IMG/VR virus record: IMGVR_UViG_3300021185_001264
Span: 1-64,000 of that record
Direction: 5' to 3' (one strand)
Source of the DNA: a virus
DNA: 64,000 nucleotides
This document shows positions 1 through 57,796 of this stretch, piece after piece (positions within the stretch are counted from its first letter, which is position 1; the number at the start of each line of letters is the position of its first letter). The notes under the pieces were generated by a model. That model worked only from the letters and a program-made list of their open reading frames with translations. It did not search any database and had not been told where the DNA came from. Made by a program: the position numbers and the translations under genes.

Positions 1-378
1 ATCAGCCGACATGTCGAGTATAAGTGCGTCAATAGCTACATTAGGGCTACCAGATTTAGTGCCTCTAAATTTTATATCGCCGTCAACTATTTTAGCGTCT
101 ATTGCTAGATTGTTGCCATTATGATTGAAGTTACCGAACCATACCGTAGCATCTTTCAGCATGATATTGCCGCCATCAGCGTCTAGTATGATATCGCTTC
201 CTGAATCTAGCGTCATATTTGAAGTTGTAGATATTGCGGCTTGATCTATGGTTATGGTATCTACAACGACTGAACCAAATGTTCCTGCCGCAGTTGTGTT
301 GATTGCGATTGCTGAGTGCAAGTCTGCGGCTACGATTGCGCCGTCTGTTATCTGGGATGATTTTATTCTAGTTGCCAT
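1..378 (-). CDS. Tail-fibre-like virion protein, 3' end outside window
   Basis: An open frame starts at the ATG at 378 and runs leftward off the window edge, giving 126 residues without a stop. The N-terminus reads MATRIKSSQITDGAIVAADL, a style seen at the start of many phage fibre proteins. It is followed by short Gly/Asp/Asn-rich beta-type segments such as GSDIILDADGGNIMLKD. The start lies 1 nt beyond the stop of the next gene upstream (380-1342), so the two are almost certainly co-translated. Function beyond a structural or fibre role cannot be told. The C-terminal part is missing from the window, so any chaperone or receptor-binding domain cannot be judged. Confidence 0.75.
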   Translation of the reverse strand, partial: MATRIKSSQITDGAIVAADLHSAIAINTTAAGTFGSVVVDTITIDQAAISTTSNMTLDSGSDIILDADGGNIMLKDATVWFGNFNHNGNNLAIDAKIVDGDIKFRGTKSGSPNVAIDALILDMSAD

Positions 379-49382: not shown

Positions 49383-49962
49383 GACATATTTCACGCATTT
49401 TCACTTTATCATAATTTAAAAATGGTCCATATTTCTTAACAATCTTATTTATACTAGGGTAAACTATCGTATCATTGATGGATTTATCCCAGTACTTGAA
49501 GCATCCTGTCAAGTCACTTAATATGACTAGAGTTTCGATGCTTATGCGCTTCATGTTAAAGAGTGACAATACACGAGGATACTGTCCATCTTCAACAATG
49601 AAGTTAGCATTAAAGTCTTCGTTCAATTCGTCTAGTTCATTACTAAACACATATCCCAAAGACTGTTGACGTTTCGACCATTCCATGAAAGTTTCATTTG
49701 CGGTGTCACTGTCAACTAAGTCTCCAATCCAAACGTCTGGATTGTTGACCATGTTAGCTAACAAAAATTCTTTATAGTCCTTTCGCTTTGCCAACTTAAA
49801 GAAGAAAAACTTATCTTTACGATTTTCAAATGCATCGATTCTGGCGTTAACCTTGCCGTTGTATTTGAAGTAATCATAGTTCGAACCAAAGTGCCGCTTC
49901 AAGGCTAGATAGCATATGTAAACGTCAAATGCGTCTTTAGTGCTATACAAGCTTTTCGTCAT
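49360..49962 (-). CDS. 59: DNA helicase loader gp59
   Basis: 200 residues (T4 gp59 is 217). It matches the T4 protein pattern: YDYFKYNGKVNARIDAFENRK, DKFFFFKLAKRK, LLANMVNNPDVWIGDLVDSD (T4 has an equivalent NLVANQDAWIGDISDAD) and FNMKRISIETLVILSDL. gp59 loads the gp41 helicase at forks together with gp32. Gene order 33-59-32 is the same as in T4. The start overlaps the gp33 stop (ATGA). Confidence 0.88.
   Translation of the reverse strand: MTKSLYSTKDAFDVYICYLALKRHFGSNYDYFKYNGKVNARIDAFENRKDKFFFFKLAKRKDYKEFLLANMVNNPDVWIGDLVDSDTANETFMEWSKRQQSLGYVFSNELDELNEDFNANFIVEDGQYPRVLSLFNMKRISIETLVILSDLTGCFKYWDKSINDTIVYPSINKIVKKYGPFLNYDKVKMREICLDKYNAV
49446..49453 (-). promoter_or_regulatory. Late promoter box inside gp59, ahead of gp32
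   Basis: Exact TATAAATA on the minus strand, about 150 nt before the gp32 start. It would add late expression of gp32 to the early promoter. Confidence 0.45.
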
Positions 49963-50153
49963 ACTGGCAACCTTGTAAGTTTCTCTACCATATTTAGTTC
50001 TTCGGCTTCTCTGTAAATCTTAGCTTTCAGAACTGGTGATCGTCTAATAATCTCGCCGACCACTTCTACTTCTAGTCCATACTTCTCTGCGTAATATATC
50101 ACTGCATCGATGTAAGGCACTCCTTTAGAAATATTCTCTGCAATCTCTTTCAT
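49959..50153 (-). CDS. 33: Late transcription accessory protein gp33
   Basis: 64 residues, shorter than T4 gp33 (112). The core aligns by eye with the T4 C-terminal part: ISKGVPYIDAVIYYAEKYGL, EVEVVGEIIRRSPVLKAKIY, then REAEELNM. gp33 bridges RNA polymerase and the sliding clamp gp45 for transcription from TATAAATA promoters. It is located upstream of gp59 and gp32 as in T4. The presence of gp33 agrees with the many late boxes in this window. Confidence 0.8.
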   Translation of the reverse strand: MKEIAENISKGVPYIDAVIYYAEKYGLEVEVVGEIIRRSPVLKAKIYREAEELNMVEKLTRLPV

Positions 50154-50634: not shown

Positions 50635-50892
50635 TTATTTGACAGATTCTAAAAGGGCTTCGATCTCTTCTATCTCAGATACGATTTCACTCATGTTCTG
50701 TTTGTGATAGATACGAGCCATCTTGCCTAAATATTTTTTGGGAATACCAACTTCATCTTCGAGTGAGATGATAGCTTCTTTTACGAACTCACGTTCAGCT
50801 TCTTGTCGAAGATAGGAGTTACTAATCTCTTCCATACAGTCTTTGATCCGCTTGCGATCAGCTTCACTTGATGGGATTATAATTGATGTCAT
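50635..50892 (-). CDS. dsbA: Double-stranded DNA-binding protein dsbA-like
   Basis: 85 residues from the ATG at 50892. The C-terminal half (LEDEVGIPKKYLGKMARIYH, then KQNMSEIVSEIEEIEALL) aligns by eye with T4 DsbA (89 aa), a protein that binds late promoter regions and aids late transcription. An upstream in-frame ATG at 50952 is rejected: it lies in the -35 box of the promoter at 50924-50952, whereas 50892 has GAGGT five nt upstream. dsbA is next to gene 33 in T4; here two small genes lie between. Confidence 0.75.
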   Translation of the reverse strand: MTSIIIPSSEADRKRIKDCMEEISNSYLRQEAEREFVKEAIISLEDEVGIPKKYLGKMARIYHKQNMSEIVSEIEEIEALLESVK

Positions 50893-50923
50893 ACTATACC
50901 TCATATTGATTAAATGAGTGATC

Positions 50924-50952
50924 ATAATAACAGATGTTGATGTCTCTGTCAA
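50924..50952 (-). promoter_or_regulatory. Sigma70-like promoter of dsbA (TTGACA-17-TATTAT)
   Basis: Minus strand TTGACA (50952-50947), 17-nt spacer, TATTAT (50929-50924). It gives a leader of about 30 nt before the dsbA ATG at 50892. Confidence 0.78.
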
Positions 50953-51015: not shown

Positions 51016-51384
51016 TTAGAAGCTAAATGTAGCACCGATGTGAATCTCTTCACGTGCTGTTGCTTCTAGGTTGTACTTTGTCTTTGCATAGTACTCTACA
51101 GAATCCATTGAGCCCATAGTATAGTTTAATTCGAACTCAAGCGTAGGCATAACTTCGATAGTGTTATCTGCTACCAATTCGTTATCCCATATTGCCAACT
51201 CTGTGCTTGTTACAAAGTTCAAGCCTTCAGTTGGCGTAAATGTCAACGCCGGTTCGATGTCAACTGTCATGCGAGCCGCATCTACAGCATAGTTAGCGTC
51301 TATTTCACCACCAAATGACCACATAGAGTCTGCATATGCAGTAGTTGCTGTTAATGCCGCAACTGTTGCGATTACGAGTTTCAT
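51016..51384 (-). CDS. Small exported protein, outer-membrane beta-barrel-like
   Basis: 122 residues with a clear Sec signal peptide (MKLVIATVAALTATTAYA, cut before DS). The mature ~104 residues show about six amphipathic beta strands (GGEIDANYAV, MTVDIEPALTF, LNFVTSTELAIW, TIEVMPTLEFELNYTM, VEYYAKTKYNLEA, EIHIGATFSF) and end with Phe, the usual C-terminal signal of outer membrane proteins. It is short for a full barrel, so it may oligomerise. The gene starts about 25 nt after the tmRNA coding piece and has AAAGGAAAT before the ATG, so it is probably co-transcribed with the tmRNA. A role in changing the infected cell surface (for example exclusion) is speculative. Confidence 0.75.
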   Translation of the reverse strand: MKLVIATVAALTATTAYADSMWSFGGEIDANYAVDAARMTVDIEPALTFTPTEGLNFVTSTELAIWDNELVADNTIEVMPTLEFELNYTMGSMDSVEYYAKTKYNLEATAREEIHIGATFSF

Positions 51385-51458
51385 TAGATTTCCTTTCTTA
51401 TAATTGAAACTTGGTCCGGCATTTTCTGTTCCAAGGCAAGCCGGTCAGCCCGTCAAAT

Positions 51459-51503
51459 TTACGCCGCTAGTGCGTAGTCTGAAGATACAAAGTTATCGTT
51501 TGC
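51459..51503 (-). other. tmRNA tag reading frame ANDNFVSSDYALAA
   Basis: Resume codon GCA at 51503-51501, then 13 more codons and TAA (51461-51459). The peptide starts AND and ends ALAA, as expected for a trans-translation degradation tag recognised by ClpXP-type proteases and SspB-like adaptors. With the Ala charged on the tmRNA the full tag would be 15 residues. Confidence 0.92.
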
Positions 51504-51588
51504 ATTTAGTTTGGTTTCTTGCGTTAACGGAGCTTGCGCCCGGATTCTCCACTTCTCTGCCCTGTCAGTCGATTCCTACTTCAGCCCC

Positions 51589-51670
51589 ATCAAAAATACA
51601 TTGTCTTGGACCCTTGCGAGGTCTGCGTCTCTGCAAAGACACCTTATTGCAGTAAGGCGCAATGTACTTT
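51589..51670 (-). other. Intervening segment of the permuted tmRNA
   Basis: 82 nt between the CCA end and the start of the coding piece. The ends pair (51666-51660 with 51603-51597, 7 bp). Inside are three small hairpins: CCTTA/TAAGG, GTCT/AGAC and GACC/GGTC. In known permuted tmRNAs such a segment is removed after transcription to give the two mature RNAs. Confidence 0.85.
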
Positions 51671-51736
51671 TGGTGGAGCTGTCGGGAGTCGCACCCGAGT
51701 CCTGTCCAGTATTAATCCGCTTCAACGAATCATTAG

Positions 51737-51744
51737 TATTTATA
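51737..51744 (-). promoter_or_regulatory. Late box TATAAATA at the tmRNA start
   Basis: Exact late octamer directly downstream of the -10 of the sigma70-like promoter, so the tmRNA could also be transcribed by late polymerase from almost the same start. Confidence 0.55.
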
Positions 51745-51745
51745 C

Positions 51746-51774
51746 ACTATACGCTATTTTTGAATGGATGTCAA
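51746..51774 (-). promoter_or_regulatory. Sigma70-like promoter of the tmRNA (TTGACA-17-TATAGT)
   Basis: Minus strand TTGACA (51774-51769), 17-nt spacer, TATAGT (51751-51746). The start of RNA would be near 51739, just ahead of the acceptor piece. The -35 lies directly after the stop of the 40-aa gene at 51778. Confidence 0.82.
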
Positions 51775-51777
51775 GAA

Positions 51778-51900
51778 CTAAATTAAGAAATAGTAACCTA
51801 AAAACAACAATAATAGCCATATTAGTCCTTTGATAAGAAAGAAGGCAAAAACACCCCATGCAAGAACCTTAGGAGTAATTAATGCCTTCAATCTTTTCAT
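51778..51900 (-). CDS. 40-aa membrane protein next to the phosphate permease
   Basis: 40 residues: MKRLKALITPKVLAWG, then VFAFFLIKGLIWLLLLFLGY and a short tail. The basic N-terminus is followed by one or two hydrophobic helices. The ATG lies 1 nt after the permease stop (TAATATG), so it is coupled to it. It may be a small partner of the permease. No family recognised. Confidence 0.6.
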   Translation of the reverse strand: MKRLKALITPKVLAWGVFAFFLIKGLIWLLLLFLGYYFLI

Positions 51901-51901
51901 A

Positions 51902-52861
51902 TTATAATCCGTTTGGTATTAGTACGTAATGTATAGTCAGAACTATGGCAACTGAAGCACCTAGTCCAATCATCATCTTCTGAAAGTCTCTTGCCACTAA
52001 CGGGAATACAGATTTCATTTTCATCTTACCTGTAAAAGTTGCGATAGCGAGTTCACGACCAGCAAGCATACCTACGAAGACCCACGTAGTTGACATAGGA
52101 ATGTCGTTGAGTTCTTTGAAGAAATACAGGCATAACCAATAGAACAGGTCGATTAAAGTCGCACTACGGACATATCTTGTGTTATGCTTCTCTAGTACAA
52201 TCTGTTGTATCTTGCCACCACGCTCTCTGAACATGAAGAAAAGACCCACAACAAACACACATGATATTAGCATCATTAGATCAACTGGTACGACACGTGG
52301 TAGAAACACAGCAATATTAGCCATGTCATGCGACAGCCAAGTCCACCAGAGTCCACCTGTTGCGAACCACTGCGCTATTCGCCAATAGTTTTTGTTCTTC
52401 TCTTGCACTGGTTCTGCTTCATCAAGTGTACGTGATACAACGTACCACACACCGTATGCGAACAGAGCGGCAATACCATAACCCATGATGCTCTTCATCA
52501 ACATCTTTTCTAGCACAAAAGTACTCGCAAAAGCACTCAACACTAAAAAGGATGTTGATACTGGTACACCAAGTCTGGTAAGTAGTACGAGTATTCCTGG
52601 TGCGGCGGCATGATACCACTGAACTTCTTGCCAGGGAATCTTATTCAATCGACCATAGCTGATGTCTCCACCGTTTACAGTCCAACCATACCATAGTGTC
52701 GCTAGTAATACAGCACTTGCGGCTGCCCACATAGTCTTGTAATTGAATCGCTCATTGTTTGATGCCATCCAAGTGCCGAGCGTCTGCACTGAATCATTTG
52801 CAATCACCGCATAAGCGGCAAAAAGGAACCCAATAAGGCTCCAGGTAGTTAGTAGTTCCAT
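51902..52861 (-). CDS. PiT-family phosphate permease
   Basis: 319 residues, with about nine hydrophobic helices. PiT (PHO4) proteins have two inverted repeats with a GAND signature. Here the first is AVIANDSVQTLGTW (Asn22-Asp23) and the second WLSHDMANIAVFLPR (Asp179, Asn182). Each is followed by the P-x-S-T motif: GVPVSTSFLVLSAF and DIPMSTTWVFVGMLAGRELA. The family imports phosphate with protons or sodium at the inner membrane. At 319 residues it is shorter than most bacterial PiT (about 400-500). AAGGAG precedes the ATG. A host-derived auxiliary gene that could feed phosphate to phage DNA synthesis. Confidence 0.88.
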   Translation of the reverse strand: MELLTTWSLIGFLFAAYAVIANDSVQTLGTWMASNNERFNYKTMWAAASAVLLATLWYGWTVNGGDISYGRLNKIPWQEVQWYHAAAPGILVLLTRLGVPVSTSFLVLSAFASTFVLEKMLMKSIMGYGIAALFAYGVWYVVSRTLDEAEPVQEKNKNYWRIAQWFATGGLWWTWLSHDMANIAVFLPRVVPVDLMMLISCVFVVGLFFMFRERGGKIQQIVLEKHNTRYVRSATLIDLFYWLCLYFFKELNDIPMSTTWVFVGMLAGRELAIATFTGKMKMKSVFPLVARDFQKMMIGLGASVAIVLTIHYVLIPNGL

Positions 52862-52931: not shown

Positions 52932-53618
52932 TTATTTAATTTCTGGAAATAACGATTCTGATATGAATGCATCGACATCATCCGAATCAAGACCCAAACT
53001 TTTCATCACATTTGGGGTATGTGGATTCATCTTCTGATGCTCTGCATAATAGTTTTGCGATGCTTTGCCTAAATCACTGTCAGCGTATCCGTTATACTTA
53101 CCAATGTTTTTCTTGTAGTAACACAGACCTTCTTTGGCAACCTTACATATCTGATCGATCTCTGCTGGTTCTTTGACCATACCAGCGGCAATCATGCTAT
53201 CACTGAAGATTGCTTTTGCCCATGGCGGCAGTTCTCGTTCTCTTTTCCATTGTAATGGTTTGGCAATTGTTGCGAAGTGTTCCATCATAGGATGTTCTGA
53301 ATTAGACGTAGAAGAGAAATCATAAAATGCACCTGTCATCTTATTGGCACCTGCAATCACATCAAACCCGTATATTGGTCCGTCATTATGTGTATGAGGA
53401 AAGACACATACATGCATCATCCACAGCTTCTTCTCTTCACGCATATCGACCACATCAATGTGTGCCCTACGATAATTGTTATTTGACCATACTCTGTTTA
53501 CCCAACCAGGCTGATTGAATCTATCCATACCAGGCTCACGTATTTCAGTAGCATCTGATGATAGCTGTTCGATTAGATTGTTTTGAAGATCAATCAAACT
53601 ATTCCATATAATAGACAT
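52932..53618 (-). CDS. Ferredoxin-dependent bilin reductase (PcyA/PcyX-like)
   Basis: 228 residues. The family core is clear: WSNNNYRRAHIDVVDMREEK, LWMMHVCVFPHTHNDGPIYG, FDVIAGANKMTGAFYDFSS. His69 and Asp86 are 17 residues apart, the same spacing as the catalytic His88/Asp105 of PcyA, and the remembered phage enzyme PebS lacks that His. It therefore belongs nearer the PcyA/PcyX side, where viral PcyX enzymes turn biliverdin into a reduced bilin. Electrons would come from host ferredoxin. The start overlaps the stop of the small membrane gene (TAATG); heme oxygenase lies one gene upstream. Confidence 0.88.
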   Translation of the reverse strand: MSIIWNSLIDLQNNLIEQLSSDATEIREPGMDRFNQPGWVNRVWSNNNYRRAHIDVVDMREEKKLWMMHVCVFPHTHNDGPIYGFDVIAGANKMTGAFYDFSSTSNSEHPMMEHFATIAKPLQWKRERELPPWAKAIFSDSMIAAGMVKEPAEIDQICKVAKEGLCYYKKNIGKYNGYADSDLGKASQNYYAEHQKMNPHTPNVMKSLGLDSDDVDAFISESLFPEIK

Positions 53619-53764
53619 TACAGCACCGTTGCTCCGACTACTGTCGTAACTATTATTAAGACGTATAAACCATACATCATTATACTTAATTTTTCAAGTC
53701 TTTTCTGTCTCTCTCCAAAAGCAACCATCAATCTTTCGAATGATTCATCCAATTCGCTCTTCAT
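53618..53764 (-). CDS. 48-aa one-helix membrane protein inside the bilin operon
   Basis: 48 residues from the ATG at 53764, which has GAGGAG seven nt upstream; a longer in-frame start at 53833 has no such site and overlaps heme oxygenase more. The N-terminal half is a charged helix (MKSELDESFERLMVAFGERQ), and the C-terminal half one membrane helix (MMYGLYVLIIVTTVVGATVL). It overlaps the heme oxygenase end by 20 nt and the reductase start by one base pair of codons (TAATG). No family recognised; it could tether or regulate the bilin enzymes. Confidence 0.7.
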   Translation of the reverse strand: MKSELDESFERLMVAFGERQKRLEKLSIMMYGLYVLIIVTTVVGATVL

Positions 53765-54302
53765 GCAATAACTCCTCAAATAGTCTAATCGCAAATGCAA
53801 AGCATTTATTTGCTTCATCTGCCATATTATCATTCAACAACAGTCGAACATTCTGCTTCATCTCTTCTTTGTTTTCAAACTGATACATGGTACCACTACC
53901 AGGAACACGTTTTGCAATGATAGCACCACCGTACATATCTCCAAAGTGTCTTACATATAAGTGCGAGATGATTCCGTCTACGTCTTCGTTCATTAAAAGG
54001 TTTTCAATGTGTCCGACATATTCTTGGGTTGACTTGCATATGAGTTCGCTATAGGTAAATCCGTAGATTTCCTCAAGTTCATGCATGTCATCTATGATCT
54101 TTTTTGCCCTAAAAATTGACCTGAACTCTTCTGGAAATGCGAGTTCACGCAACGCTGATTCGAGAACAACGTAGTTCTGGGACTGATTGATTAAGTATCT
54201 GTAATATAGAAAGGGATCAATATTACCACTGAGTAATATCTTGGCAAAATCTTTACGTTCTGCTGATCTATGGTTTTCTGCCGTTAGCTGTTTTAAATTC
54301 AA
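53745..54302 (-). CDS. Heme oxygenase
   Basis: 185 residues. The N-terminal LTAENHRSAER contains the proximal heme ligand His11, and the distal helix reads HLYVRHFGDMYGGAIIAKRV with the G-D-x-x-G-G motif (121-126). The enzyme opens heme to biliverdin, iron and CO, giving the substrate of the reductase two genes downstream. The start is TTG at 54302 with GGAG seven nt upstream; an in-frame stop two codons earlier rules out a longer form. The leader carries a 9-bp inverted repeat. Confidence 0.9.
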   Translation of the reverse strand: MNLKQLTAENHRSAERKDFAKILLSGNIDPFLYYRYLINQSQNYVVLESALRELAFPEEFRSIFRAKKIIDDMHELEEIYGFTYSELICKSTQEYVGHIENLLMNEDVDGIISHLYVRHFGDMYGGAIIAKRVPGSGTMYQFENKEEMKQNVRLLLNDNMADEANKCFAFAIRLFEELLHEERIG

Positions 54303-54356: not shown

Positions 54357-54364
54357 TATTTATC
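54357..54364 (-). promoter_or_regulatory. Late-like box GATAAATA ahead of heme oxygenase
   Basis: Minus-strand GATAAATA (one mismatch), overlapping the kinase stop codon, 55 nt before the TTG start. It could drive the bilin operon late. Confidence 0.35.
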
Positions 54365-55058
54365 TAGTCTTTTTAGCCTTCTCAGATTTAATCCATCTCT
54401 TGGCTACAGCATTATCTGGTTCTGCATTCACAAACTTGGTGATCTCTCTATAGGCACGGGTAGTTTCTTTTTGATAGTCTTTGCCTTCAGAGTTATCTAC
54501 AACAGTAAACTTTTGCTTTCCGAACATAGTCTGAAAAGAACCAATATTCTTTTGAACTGTAGTCCAGTACTTTTCTACTTCATCAGCAGGCAGTGTTCTT
54601 GCTCTCGCTTTGTTACGTGCTTGTGCTGTGGCTAAGTCAGTGTTAACGAAAATCATTGCAACATCGTAACCTAGCTTTTTGAGTTCTTTTGCTTGGTTTG
54701 TCAGCTTTGCTGTGTCTTTACCTGTACCATCGATACATAGACCTAAACGACCTTTTATGTACATCGCTTGCTTAGTCGCTGTCAGCTTCTTGGCTTTGCC
54801 TCGTAACTCTTGACCTTTAACGGAGAAGATGTTATCCGGATCCATTTCCATACCAGCTTTCTTCATAGCTGATTCAAATGCATCGTCTGAGTTCACAACC
54901 TTAAATCCAAGTGCTGGAAGTCCAGTTTTGCCTACAATGAATGATTTGCCAGAGCCAGGTCCACCGGCTAAGAATACTGCTTTGAAGATTGCAGGATCAT
55001 TAACGCCTTCTTCGATTTGTTTTAGTTCTTCTTTAAGATAGTTTTCAAACGATAACAC
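54360..55058 (-). CDS. P-loop kinase / zeta-toxin-like protein
   Basis: 232 residues. The Walker A motif is at about residues 30-39 (LAGGPGSGKS), followed by VVNSDDAFESAMKKAGMEMD and a Walker B-like LGLCIDGTGKD, then NKARARTLPADEVEKYW with the arginine-rich lid of polynucleotide-kinase or zeta-toxin-type enzymes. Such genes are frequent in marine T4-like phages, usually of unknown substrate. The start is GTG at 55058 with AAGGA before it. It could phosphorylate nucleic acid or a small molecule in the cytoplasm. Confidence 0.8.
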   Translation of the reverse strand: MLSFENYLKEELKQIEEGVNDPAIFKAVFLAGGPGSGKSFIVGKTGLPALGFKVVNSDDAFESAMKKAGMEMDPDNIFSVKGQELRGKAKKLTATKQAMYIKGRLGLCIDGTGKDTAKLTNQAKELKKLGYDVAMIFVNTDLATAQARNKARARTLPADEVEKYWTTVQKNIGSFQTMFGKQKFTVVDNSEGKDYQKETTRAYREITKFVNAEPDNAVAKRWIKSEKAKKTR

Positions 55059-55744: not shown

Positions 55745-57796
55745 TTATTTAGTCGTTGGGCGATACACTCCATCCCAATCTTTAGGCAGTTCTCTAGTCT
55801 TCATCTCTTTGCATCGATCAATCCATACGTCATAATATCCGTCCATAGTGCCTAAAAAGCACCCCTTTAAGTCATCACAGAACTTGATTGCCATGTCAAA
55901 TTTCTGCATTCGATATAAATCTAGCATCTTTATGTGCTGTTTAGTTTCAAATACATATGCAGAGTTTTCATTCCACCAAGAGTGTTCTCCTAGAACAGTG
56001 AAAATTCGTACACCTTCGTTCTTGCCCTTTACAGCAATACAGTCTAGTTCAAGTGTGGCAAATACATCATCGATCTCTTTTGCCGTCTCTTCTCCAATAA
56101 TAGTTTTCACGCCATATCCTTTCGTTTGTCCTTCGAGTCTGGCTGCCAAATTCACTGCATCTCCTAACACAGAGTAGTCGAACCTTTGCTCAGACCCCAT
56201 ATTACCAACAACGACTGCGCCGCTATTGATTCCTACGCCTATATTTATTGGTAACAAACCGTCACTCTCTAACTCAGCATTTAGGACTTCTAATGCTTCG
56301 TACATTTGTACGGACGTCAAACACGCTTTTCTTTCTTGCTCTTCTACATCAAGAGGAGCATTCCAGAAAGCCATAATACAATCGCCCATATACTTGTCAA
56401 TAGTACCCTCATTCTCCATAATGATATTAGTCATAGGAGTTAAGAATCTATTCACAAGTTCTGTCAGACCCTGTGGATCCGTCTTATATTGCTCTGAGAT
56501 GGGTGTAAATCCACGTATATCACAGAACAAAAATGTCATATGTTTAGTCTCTCCACCGAGTTGCAGTAACTCAGGATTCTTTTGTAGTTTTTCTACCATA
56601 GGTGCTGATAGATATGTGCCAAACTGTTTCTTAATTCGCATCTTGGCGAAGTACTCTTGCCCGTATTTGACTCCATACACGTGAGCAAACACTAGTATAG
56701 CCATCGCACCTTGCATCATTATGATATATAATTCTGCATAATTGTTGAACCAGTATATAGGAAAGTATATCGATGATCCGATCAGCAATAGCGGTGGTAC
56801 CCAACCAAATCTCACATAACTCAATCCAACTATTAGTATACCTAATCCTAGAATAGTTGCAAGTTTAGCAAAATCAGCAAGAGGTGGAGTTACGATGTTG
56901 TATTGGTTTTTGACTGAGGTAAATGCTCTTGCAGTTACATCATGTCCATATGCGGCACCTGATGCTGTCGGCACTGGGTTAGATATTCCGTCTGCTGTTA
57001 CACCCACGAATACTGTTGCACCTTTTAAATCGTCAAACTCTGTAGTTAGATCGTATCGTTTAAAGTCATAGTTTGGATTTATCCATATACGGCTTATTGG
57101 ATCTGTATTGATTGTAGGAAATCCTTTGACACGAACTGCCTGTACTCCAAACTCATTGCTCTTAACCTGAAACGTATTTGACCCAGTGTATGCCTTGAAT
57201 ATCTCTAAGATGATTGATGGGTAGAGTTTATCTTGTACGCCAGCAATCATAGGTAATCTTCGAACTACTCCGTCAATCTCAGGCAATGTGTTTGCAATGC
57301 CTATGCCAGTAGCGGCATTTTCATACTTCTCTAAGTTTGCGGCTATGCCAGGATAATTGTAAATATAATCCAAAGCATCACCACCAACCTGTACAATAGC
57401 TGTACTGTATGCGGATCTATTCTGAGCCTTATTGCTAGGGAAGTGAGAAAGAATGACTCCGTTCGGAAGCATGAGCGTGAAGCCTTCGTCTTCACCTGTT
57501 CGATCTTCTTCTGGAAATGATAGATTAAATACGATAACACCTGCATTCGCTTGACGCAATCTGAGGATTAAATCCCCATAAATGTTTCTTGGTAGTGGGT
57601 ATTGTCCATGTACTTCTAAAGTCTTCTCCGAGATGTCTACGAGAACGACATCCTCAATGAATTGCTTTTCCTTTACGATCAACTGGTCACTGATTCTCAG
57701 ATCAATGCTCTGAAGCAGTGTAGGATTTAATATTGTTAGCCACGTTAGAGTTAACGTAGTGATGATAGCGAATAATGGCGAAAGCAGTATTTTCAT
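55745..57796 (-). CDS. CHASE2-transmembrane-class III nucleotide cyclase
   Basis: 683 residues. N-terminal anchor helix (8-28), CHASE2 sensor in the periplasm (about 30-305: VVLVDISEKTLEVHGQYPLP, VIVFNLSFPEEDR, GATVFVGVTADGISNPVPT), then three membrane helices (about 307-375) and a cytoplasmic cyclase domain (about 415-600). Catalytic residues are visible: metal Asp426 (LFCDIRGFT) and Asp472 (KYMGDCIMAFWNAP), base-recognition Lys468 and Asp546 (SVLGDAVNLAARLE), and Asn549/Arg553. Lys and Asp at the base sites point to ATP, so cAMP is the likely product. It appears intact. GAGAGG precedes the ATG. It follows the curli/FecR genes in the same direction. Confidence 0.9.
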   Translation of the reverse strand: MKILLSPLFAIITTLTLTWLTILNPTLLQSIDLRISDQLIVKEKQFIEDVVLVDISEKTLEVHGQYPLPRNIYGDLILRLRQANAGVIVFNLSFPEEDRTGEDEGFTLMLPNGVILSHFPSNKAQNRSAYSTAIVQVGGDALDYIYNYPGIAANLEKYENAATGIGIANTLPEIDGVVRRLPMIAGVQDKLYPSIILEIFKAYTGSNTFQVKSNEFGVQAVRVKGFPTINTDPISRIWINPNYDFKRYDLTTEFDDLKGATVFVGVTADGISNPVPTASGAAYGHDVTARAFTSVKNQYNIVTPPLADFAKLATILGLGILIVGLSYVRFGWVPPLLLIGSSIYFPIYWFNNYAELYIIMMQGAMAILVFAHVYGVKYGQEYFAKMRIKKQFGTYLSAPMVEKLQKNPELLQLGGETKHMTFLFCDIRGFTPISEQYKTDPQGLTELVNRFLTPMTNIIMENEGTIDKYMGDCIMAFWNAPLDVEEQERKACLTSVQMYEALEVLNAELESDGLLPINIGVGINSGAVVVGNMGSEQRFDYSVLGDAVNLAARLEGQTKGYGVKTIIGEETAKEIDDVFATLELDCIAVKGKNEGVRIFTVLGEHSWWNENSAYVFETKQHIKMLDLYRMQKFDMAIKFCDDLKGCFLGTMDGYYDVWIDRCKEMKTRELPKDWDGVYRPTTK

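Follow-up and report, generated by a model that had tools for sequence, protein, structure and literature searches.

A permuted two-piece tmRNA gene of a T4-like phage and its candidate stacked early and late promoter

Does a phage that carries a two-piece tmRNA gene make a working ribosome-rescue RNA, and at what stage of infection would that RNA be made? We examined these questions for a locus in a stretch of 64,000 nucleotides (referred to here as the window) from a 66,783-base IMG/VR virus record (IMGVR_UViG_3300021185_001264). The gene content of the window, which includes baseplate and tail tube genes as well as members of the gp32 and gp59 families, is that of a T4-like myovirus, here taken to be a virus of aquatic bacteria. 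A sequence-only reading had proposed a permuted two-piece tmRNA at this locus and had named only one-piece tmRNAs as known from phages.

A complete permuted tmRNA gene is present at positions 51731–51410, on the minus strand. The Rfam model for permuted tmRNA (RF04321, tmRNA_permuted) matched positions 51731–51459 with 100 bits (cut-off of 47), and the alphaproteobacterial model (RF01849, alpha_tmRNA), a search that the earlier reading had suggested as a check, matched positions 51786–51413 with 83.1 bits (cut-off of 50). These were the only Rfam families above gathering score within the window, and both lie at the tmRNA gene. ARAGORN also called a permuted tmRNA, with the tag ANDNFVSSDYALAA. 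The gene thus lies where it had been placed, on a strand that had been left unstated. The beta (48.4 bits, cut-off of 84), cyano (24.8, cut-off of 70), and one-piece RF00023 (19.8, cut-off of 47) models remained below cut-off on the contig. The alpha model alone of these four exceeded its cut-off. The following features of RF04321 were found: an acceptor piece ahead of the coding piece, an encoded CCA, G3-U70, and an open tag frame with a degron-like Ala-Ala end. The parts of the gene are as follows.

51671–51731, minus strand: acceptor piece, comprising the P2 5' strand, T arm, 3' half of the acceptor stem, discriminator A, and CCA (RF04321 start at 51731; alignment)
51589–51670, minus strand: intervening segment with closing stem, presumed excised (fold of –29.6 kcal/mol, z of –4.4, closing stem included; two-sided changes in 8 of 11 closing-stem pairs)
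51410–51588, minus strand: coding piece, extending from acceptor-stem base G1 as far as the 3' hairpin (Rfam, alignment, and covariation; RF01849 match ends at 51413, the exact 3' end being predicted)
51459–51503, minus strand: tag frame ANDNFVSSDYALAA and stop codon (ARAGORN; RF04321 match ends at the stop)
51416–51444, minus strand: 3' hairpin CCGGC/GCCGG with the conserved AACAGAA in its loop (covariation; loop kept in the alignment)

We aligned the window gene with 17 viral relatives hand-picked from the loci fetched in three viral scans (n = 18). For 39 named pairs, 95.0% of cells were paired, and two-sided changes were apparent in 24 pairs, compared with 4 to 8 in slid controls. The covariation score was 0.423, with slid versions yielding 0.042–0.087 and shuffled ones a mean of 0.166. 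The acceptor helix consists of seven pairs, with the G3-U70 pair being U-G in all 18 sequences, and CCACCA is invariant across the alignment. What had been claimed for the acceptor piece, the 7-bp helix, G3-U70, the encoded CCA, the closing stem, and the tag was therefore confirmed by Rfam, alignment, fold, and ARAGORN. The claim of a 3' pseudoknot held in part. Its hairpin showed two-sided changes in five of five pairs, yet with 79.5% of cells paired, whereas the second stem (CUUGG/CCAAG) attained at least 5 bp in no more than 5 of the 17 sequences that could be read, that of the window among them. The pseudoknot is thus weakly supported, and we rejected it as a conserved element.

The occurrence of such a gene in a phage was confirmed, whereas its novelty was not. 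Extracts of PMC9004378 describe Melnitz, a phage of OM43, as having a two-piece tmRNA and present a 2022 survey that found 402 tmRNA-bearing phages among 18,146 genomes; 53 of the 133 unique tmRNA structures were two-piece, and 50 of these 53 came from marine or aquatic samples. The tmRNA database contains 79 phage sequences according to an extract of PMC11915505. RF04321 exceeded its cut-off in all three isolates that we tested (Melnitz, Mosig, and HTVC008M). The window gene is a further example of this published kind, phage permuted tmRNAs being already known from Melnitz and Mosig.

Immediately upstream of the gene we identified three promoter elements.

51769–51774, minus strand: –35 element TTGACA (exact consensus; 17-bp spacer to TATAGT)
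51746–51751, minus strand: sigma70-type –10 element TATAGT (one mismatch to TATAAT)
51737–51744, minus strand: T4-type late promoter box TATAAATA, predicted start at 51731 (sequence and position; T at –13 as in extracts of PMC2988020)

In the same extracts, the T4 late promoter is an 8-bp box that begins at –13 and has no –35 element. Counting 13 bases from the first T of TATAAATA leads to 51731, which is the first base of both the RNA model and the acceptor piece. The box thus has the sequence and the position of a T4-type late promoter, about one turn before the start and with no –35 element needed. The sigma70-type pattern (TTGACA, TATAAT, and a spacer of about 17 bp) is likewise present with a single mismatch. 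The –10 element and the late box are separate in the window, the box beginning one base after TATAGT. There are 13 copies of TATAAATA in the window, compared with 6.9 expected from a first-order model. Eight of them lie 34–54 bp ahead of a same-strand ORF, none of these eight with an exact TTGACA upstream; among all 13, only the copy at the tmRNA has an exact TTGACA in the 40 bp ahead of it. On the basis of these eight boxes, TATAAATA looks like the late promoter of this phage. The stacking of early and late promoters at the tmRNA suggests production of the RNA throughout infection. This regulatory feature, which was overlooked in the sequence-only reading, may be new: in the literature covered (PMC9004378 and PMC5587285 among it, partly as extracts, and with subscription journals mostly outside its scope), no phage tmRNA was found to be described with early and late promoters stacked in this way.

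The surrounding gene block contains two genes with a predicted role in late transcription.

49959–50153, minus strand: gp33-like late-transcription co-activator, in the tmRNA's own gene block (phrog_25387, E value of 1.9e-10)
50635–50952, minus strand: DsbA-like late-transcription regulator (PF11126, 37.7 bits, cut-off of 25)

The gp33-like gene is 1.3 kb from the tmRNA. Whereas both of these genes are present, gp55 was not seen among the scanned ORFs of the contig, which is a fragment. The tmRNA is flanked on the minus strand by a 319-aa ORF (51902–52861) on one side and a 122-aa ORF (51016–51384) on the other. The 319-aa protein is hydrophobic and had no match in Pfam, PHROG, or NCBIfam and no tblastn match among isolate phages; relatives are encoded in 587 IMG/VR stretches, often adjoining a tmRNA. 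Its segment IANDSVQTLGTW is, we presume, reminiscent of PiT-type phosphate permeases. The 122-aa ORF, directly downstream of the tmRNA, begins with the signal peptide–like MKLVIATVAALTATTAYA and had no match in the families searched. Other minus-strand genes nearby encode a ferredoxin-dependent bilin reductase (52932–53618; PF05996, 48.9 bits), for which the top phage match was Pelagibacter phage Mosig (50.7%), and an adjoining heme oxygenase (53745–54302; PF01126, 58.6 bits), the two possibly constituting a PcyX-type cassette of marine phages as described in extracts of PMC11480375. Also on this strand are a protein with a Zeta toxin–like kinase domain (54360–55058; PF06414, 37.7 bits), with TATAAATA 41 bp upstream, and a protein with CHASE2 and adenylate/guanylate cyclase domains (55745–57796; PF05226, 106.7 bits; PF00211, 65.1 bits), a predicted phage cyclic-nucleotide enzyme with relatives at about 37% in Melnitz and HTVC008M.

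Comparison with the isolates revealed the same arrangement in Melnitz. Its ssrA gene (MZ577097, 45984–46436; tag of ANDNYVPVDYALAA) is also permuted, the gene block similarly runs tmRNA, late co-activator, gp59, gp32, and TTGACA precedes by 17 bp a TATAAATA box whose first base is exactly 13 nt ahead of the RNA model start. The –10 element and late box coincide in Melnitz, whereas they are staggered in the window. Blastn of the window's tmRNA gene gave no match to Melnitz and, against phages, a single 36-bp match, to Brevundimonas phage Bajun; a query from locus L192 matched the four Melnitz records, and one from L210 matched tRNA genes only, among the matches listed. Mosig (MT647606; tag of GEDNFALAA) and HTVC008M (KC465899; tag of ANFNEYALAA) resemble the window in having a permuted tmRNA near a late-transcription gene but differ from it in the absence of TATAAATA within 90 nt upstream. 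In both Melnitz and Mosig, the tmRNA is next to the late-transcription co-activator. The HTVC008M tmRNA (145161–145370, plus strand; locus L379) is unannotated in its record, where the last part of a hypothetical ORF extends over its start. One-piece tmRNAs of the Bxz1 and phage G types have the standard order, and, in contrast to these, the window is below cut-off for the one-piece model. They share with the window a phage-borne ssrA, as described for mycobacteriophages such as Bxz1 and for Bacillus phage G in extracts of PMC4131195. A glutamine riboswitch has been reported in the 3' part of the Melnitz gene (extracts of PMC9004378), whereas no Rfam riboswitch was found in the window. In another contig, a manA RNA motif (L193:8176–8382, minus strand; RF01745, 64.7 bits) directly adjoins the permuted tmRNA.

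We then determined how widespread the promoter is among viral tmRNA loci. The three viral scans gave ARAGORN-called permuted tmRNAs in at least 105 loci, that of the window included, which formed 75 clusters at 85% identity; the number is a lower bound, with ARAGORN having missed 8 viral tmRNAs confirmed by Rfam and four cellular genes, and its absence calls were not used. The loci had been fetched for a tmRNA, gp32, or neighbor gene and are not a random sample; the duplicate contigs L002/L180 and L083/L252 were merged by the clustering. Of the 74 eligible clusters, 25 had an exact TATAAATA upstream of the CCA end at a distance of 64–82 nt, compared with 34 of 18,322 random windows (0.19%) from the same loci; the other 49 had none at that site. 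An exact TTGACA was present in the –35 zone in 21 of 74 clusters, compared with 1.84% of random windows. With looser rules, both elements were detected in 21 clusters, the box alone in 5, the sigma70-type elements alone in 12, and neither in 36; with looser clustering, the box was retained in 23 of 70, 17 of 56, and 6 of 20 clusters (the last at 70%/30%). In all 16 genes checked (that of the window plus those of 15 of the 25 clusters), the predicted start fell between –4 and +2 of the start of the Rfam model, coinciding with it in 7.

As a control, we analyzed cellular genes. Of 96 genomes drawn from the class to which one Hyphomonadaceae-type genome belongs, 86 contained a match above the RF04321 cut-off; three further genomes brought the set to 89 loci, of which 87 could be anchored (L286 and L373, which had no anchor, were dropped). 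Neither TATAAATA (0 of 87, including 0 of 25 genes with a GC content of <45%) nor an exact TTGACA was found in the zone for any of these 87 genes. A hairpin of at least 5 bp whose end lay no more than 6 nt from the model start was instead present in 70 of 87 cellular genes, compared with 17 of 87 random windows, whereas it was present in only 9 of 74 viral clusters (absent in 65) despite seven offsets having been tried for each. Cellular RF01849 genes and that of the window share the piece order, acceptor features, ANDN..ALAA tags, and 3' hairpin loop; they differ in the leader hairpin just before P2, which is mostly missing in the phages. The pattern suggests that the cellular leader was lost in phages, with the late box found instead in about a third of clusters. 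In the window no alpha-type leader hairpin precedes P2, and the promoter occupies the site; we accordingly classed the gene as a phage version of the alpha-type permuted tmRNA rather than as a cellular one. A weak 5-bp palindrome around TATAAATA in the alpha-model alignment was considered as a cellular leader hairpin and rejected, being upstream of the predicted late start and outside the late transcript.

The compound arrangement was also found ahead of other genes. In 279 viral loci (2,238,800 bases) we counted 60 TTGACN-15..24-TATAAATA sites, 47 of them before permuted tmRNAs (39 called by ARAGORN, 8 by Rfam) and 13 before other genes; given that the loci were chosen for a tmRNA, gp32, or neighbor gene, this count is no fair census, and exclusivity cannot be derived from it. 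The 13 sites precede probable gp32 genes (six rows, five loci), the 319-aa neighbor gene (five loci), and two others. Such a promoter stands ahead of ORFs at L251:1232 (minus strand) and L027:1606 (plus strand), which we take from their NH2-termini to resemble a small heat-shock protein and QueD, respectively. The gp32 protein is required throughout infection, and its sharing of the compound promoter fits with an always-on tmRNA. We lean slightly toward the view that, in many aquatic T4-like phages, a compound promoter (TTGACA followed, at a distance of about 17 bp, by either TATAAATA or a –10 element that overlaps it), with its start at the tmRNA 5' end, has replaced the cellular leader hairpin and would render the tmRNA a whole-infection gene in the expression class of gp32.

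The Melnitz gene was placed by its authors behind an early promoter (extracts of PMC9004378), and the window gene might likewise be a working tmRNA with an early sigma70-type promoter only, TATAAATA being an AT-rich variant of the –10 element. Indeed, 11 of the 25 boxed clusters have a TTGACA-like hexamer at a distance of exactly 17 bp from the box, which places the box at the –10 position; TATAAA is also a passable sigma70 –10 element, and the late reading is less certain where the two coincide. However, of the 74 clusters, 8 have the sigma70 consensus TATAAT in the zone and 26 have TATAAATA, five show the box but no sigma70-type –35/–10 pair, the box lies without a –35 element ahead of other window genes, and the two elements are separate in the window. 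We consider an early promoter alone unlikely.

The RNA might instead be a competitor that ties up host SmpB or AlaRS and so blunts host trans-translation, with tagging being unimportant. A tRNA-like-only phage tmRNA is known from DS6A, and a similar molecule inhibits tmRNA (extracts of PMC4131195 and PMC11915505); moreover, a search of the examined phages did not reveal SmpB. The full coding piece, with its resume region, open tag frame, and Ala-Ala end, is nevertheless kept across most of the 75 clusters, and a pure decoy would have no need for a tag frame, which renders such a role improbable. That the gene is a decaying captured host gene or a functionless passenger is highly improbable, for, although the viral genes score lower with RF01849 (55–150 bits) than do the four Hyphomonadaceae-type genes examined (220–231 bits), 24 of the 39 named pairs changed on both sides and the tmRNA landmarks were invariant among the 18 aligned genes, and ARAGORN called such tmRNAs in at least 105 viral loci.

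The tags themselves vary. There were 67 distinct tags in the 75 viral clusters, most with an AND-type start and an LAA, MAA, or VAA end. Of 75 distinct viral tags, ANDNEAYALAA alone was shared with the 82 readable cellular tags (5 of 87 were unreadable, and a few readings are implausibly long). The pattern ANDNF[AV]xx[DE]YALAA was found in none of the genomes among the cellular genome contigs, and a looser pattern was found in four, three Hyphomonadaceae and the Proteobacteria isolate HYPHO1, all true alpha tmRNAs. Naming of a host from these matches was rejected as suggestive only. Judging by its RNA type, its tag, and the closest tag patterns, the gene would seem to have come from an alphaproteobacterium. 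The earlier proposal that the host is likely an alphaproteobacterium is unsafe, because Melnitz, with its alpha-type tmRNA, infects OM43 (Methylophilales), and gene origin and host identity can therefore differ.

We consider it probable that the gene encodes a functional alpha-type two-piece tmRNA of the phage that depends on host SmpB, is made both early and late, recycles stalled ribosomes, and tags their products. We infer promoter activity from sequence, and processing, charging, rescue, and timing would proceed as follows. A single transcript would start at or near 51731. Host tRNA-processing enzymes would then act on it, with RNase P cutting at 51588 and 3' trimming extending to the encoded CCA at 51671, and the acceptor and coding pieces would remain joined by base pairs. 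Host AlaRS would recognize G3-U70, and host SmpB would bring the RNA to ribosomes stalled on broken mRNA, where translation would resume at GCA and add the tag ANDNFVSSDYALAA, exposing the product to ClpXP-type proteolysis. That the phage supplies its own ribosome rescue and tag, as had been claimed, is plausible. However, neither the contig nor Melnitz, Mosig, or HTVC008M was found to encode SmpB, and the RNA would therefore need that of the host. The sigma70-type promoter would allow early synthesis by unmodified host polymerase, and the T4-type late promoter late synthesis by the phage late machinery, of which the gp33-like and DsbA-like genes in the contig would be part.

For Melnitz, early expression has been proposed to lead to degradation of host proteins, with viral ones being spared (extracts of PMC9004378). 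The presence of a late promoter where the RNA begins would speak against a purely early role and would point to the freeing of ribosomes amid heavy late mRNA turnover.
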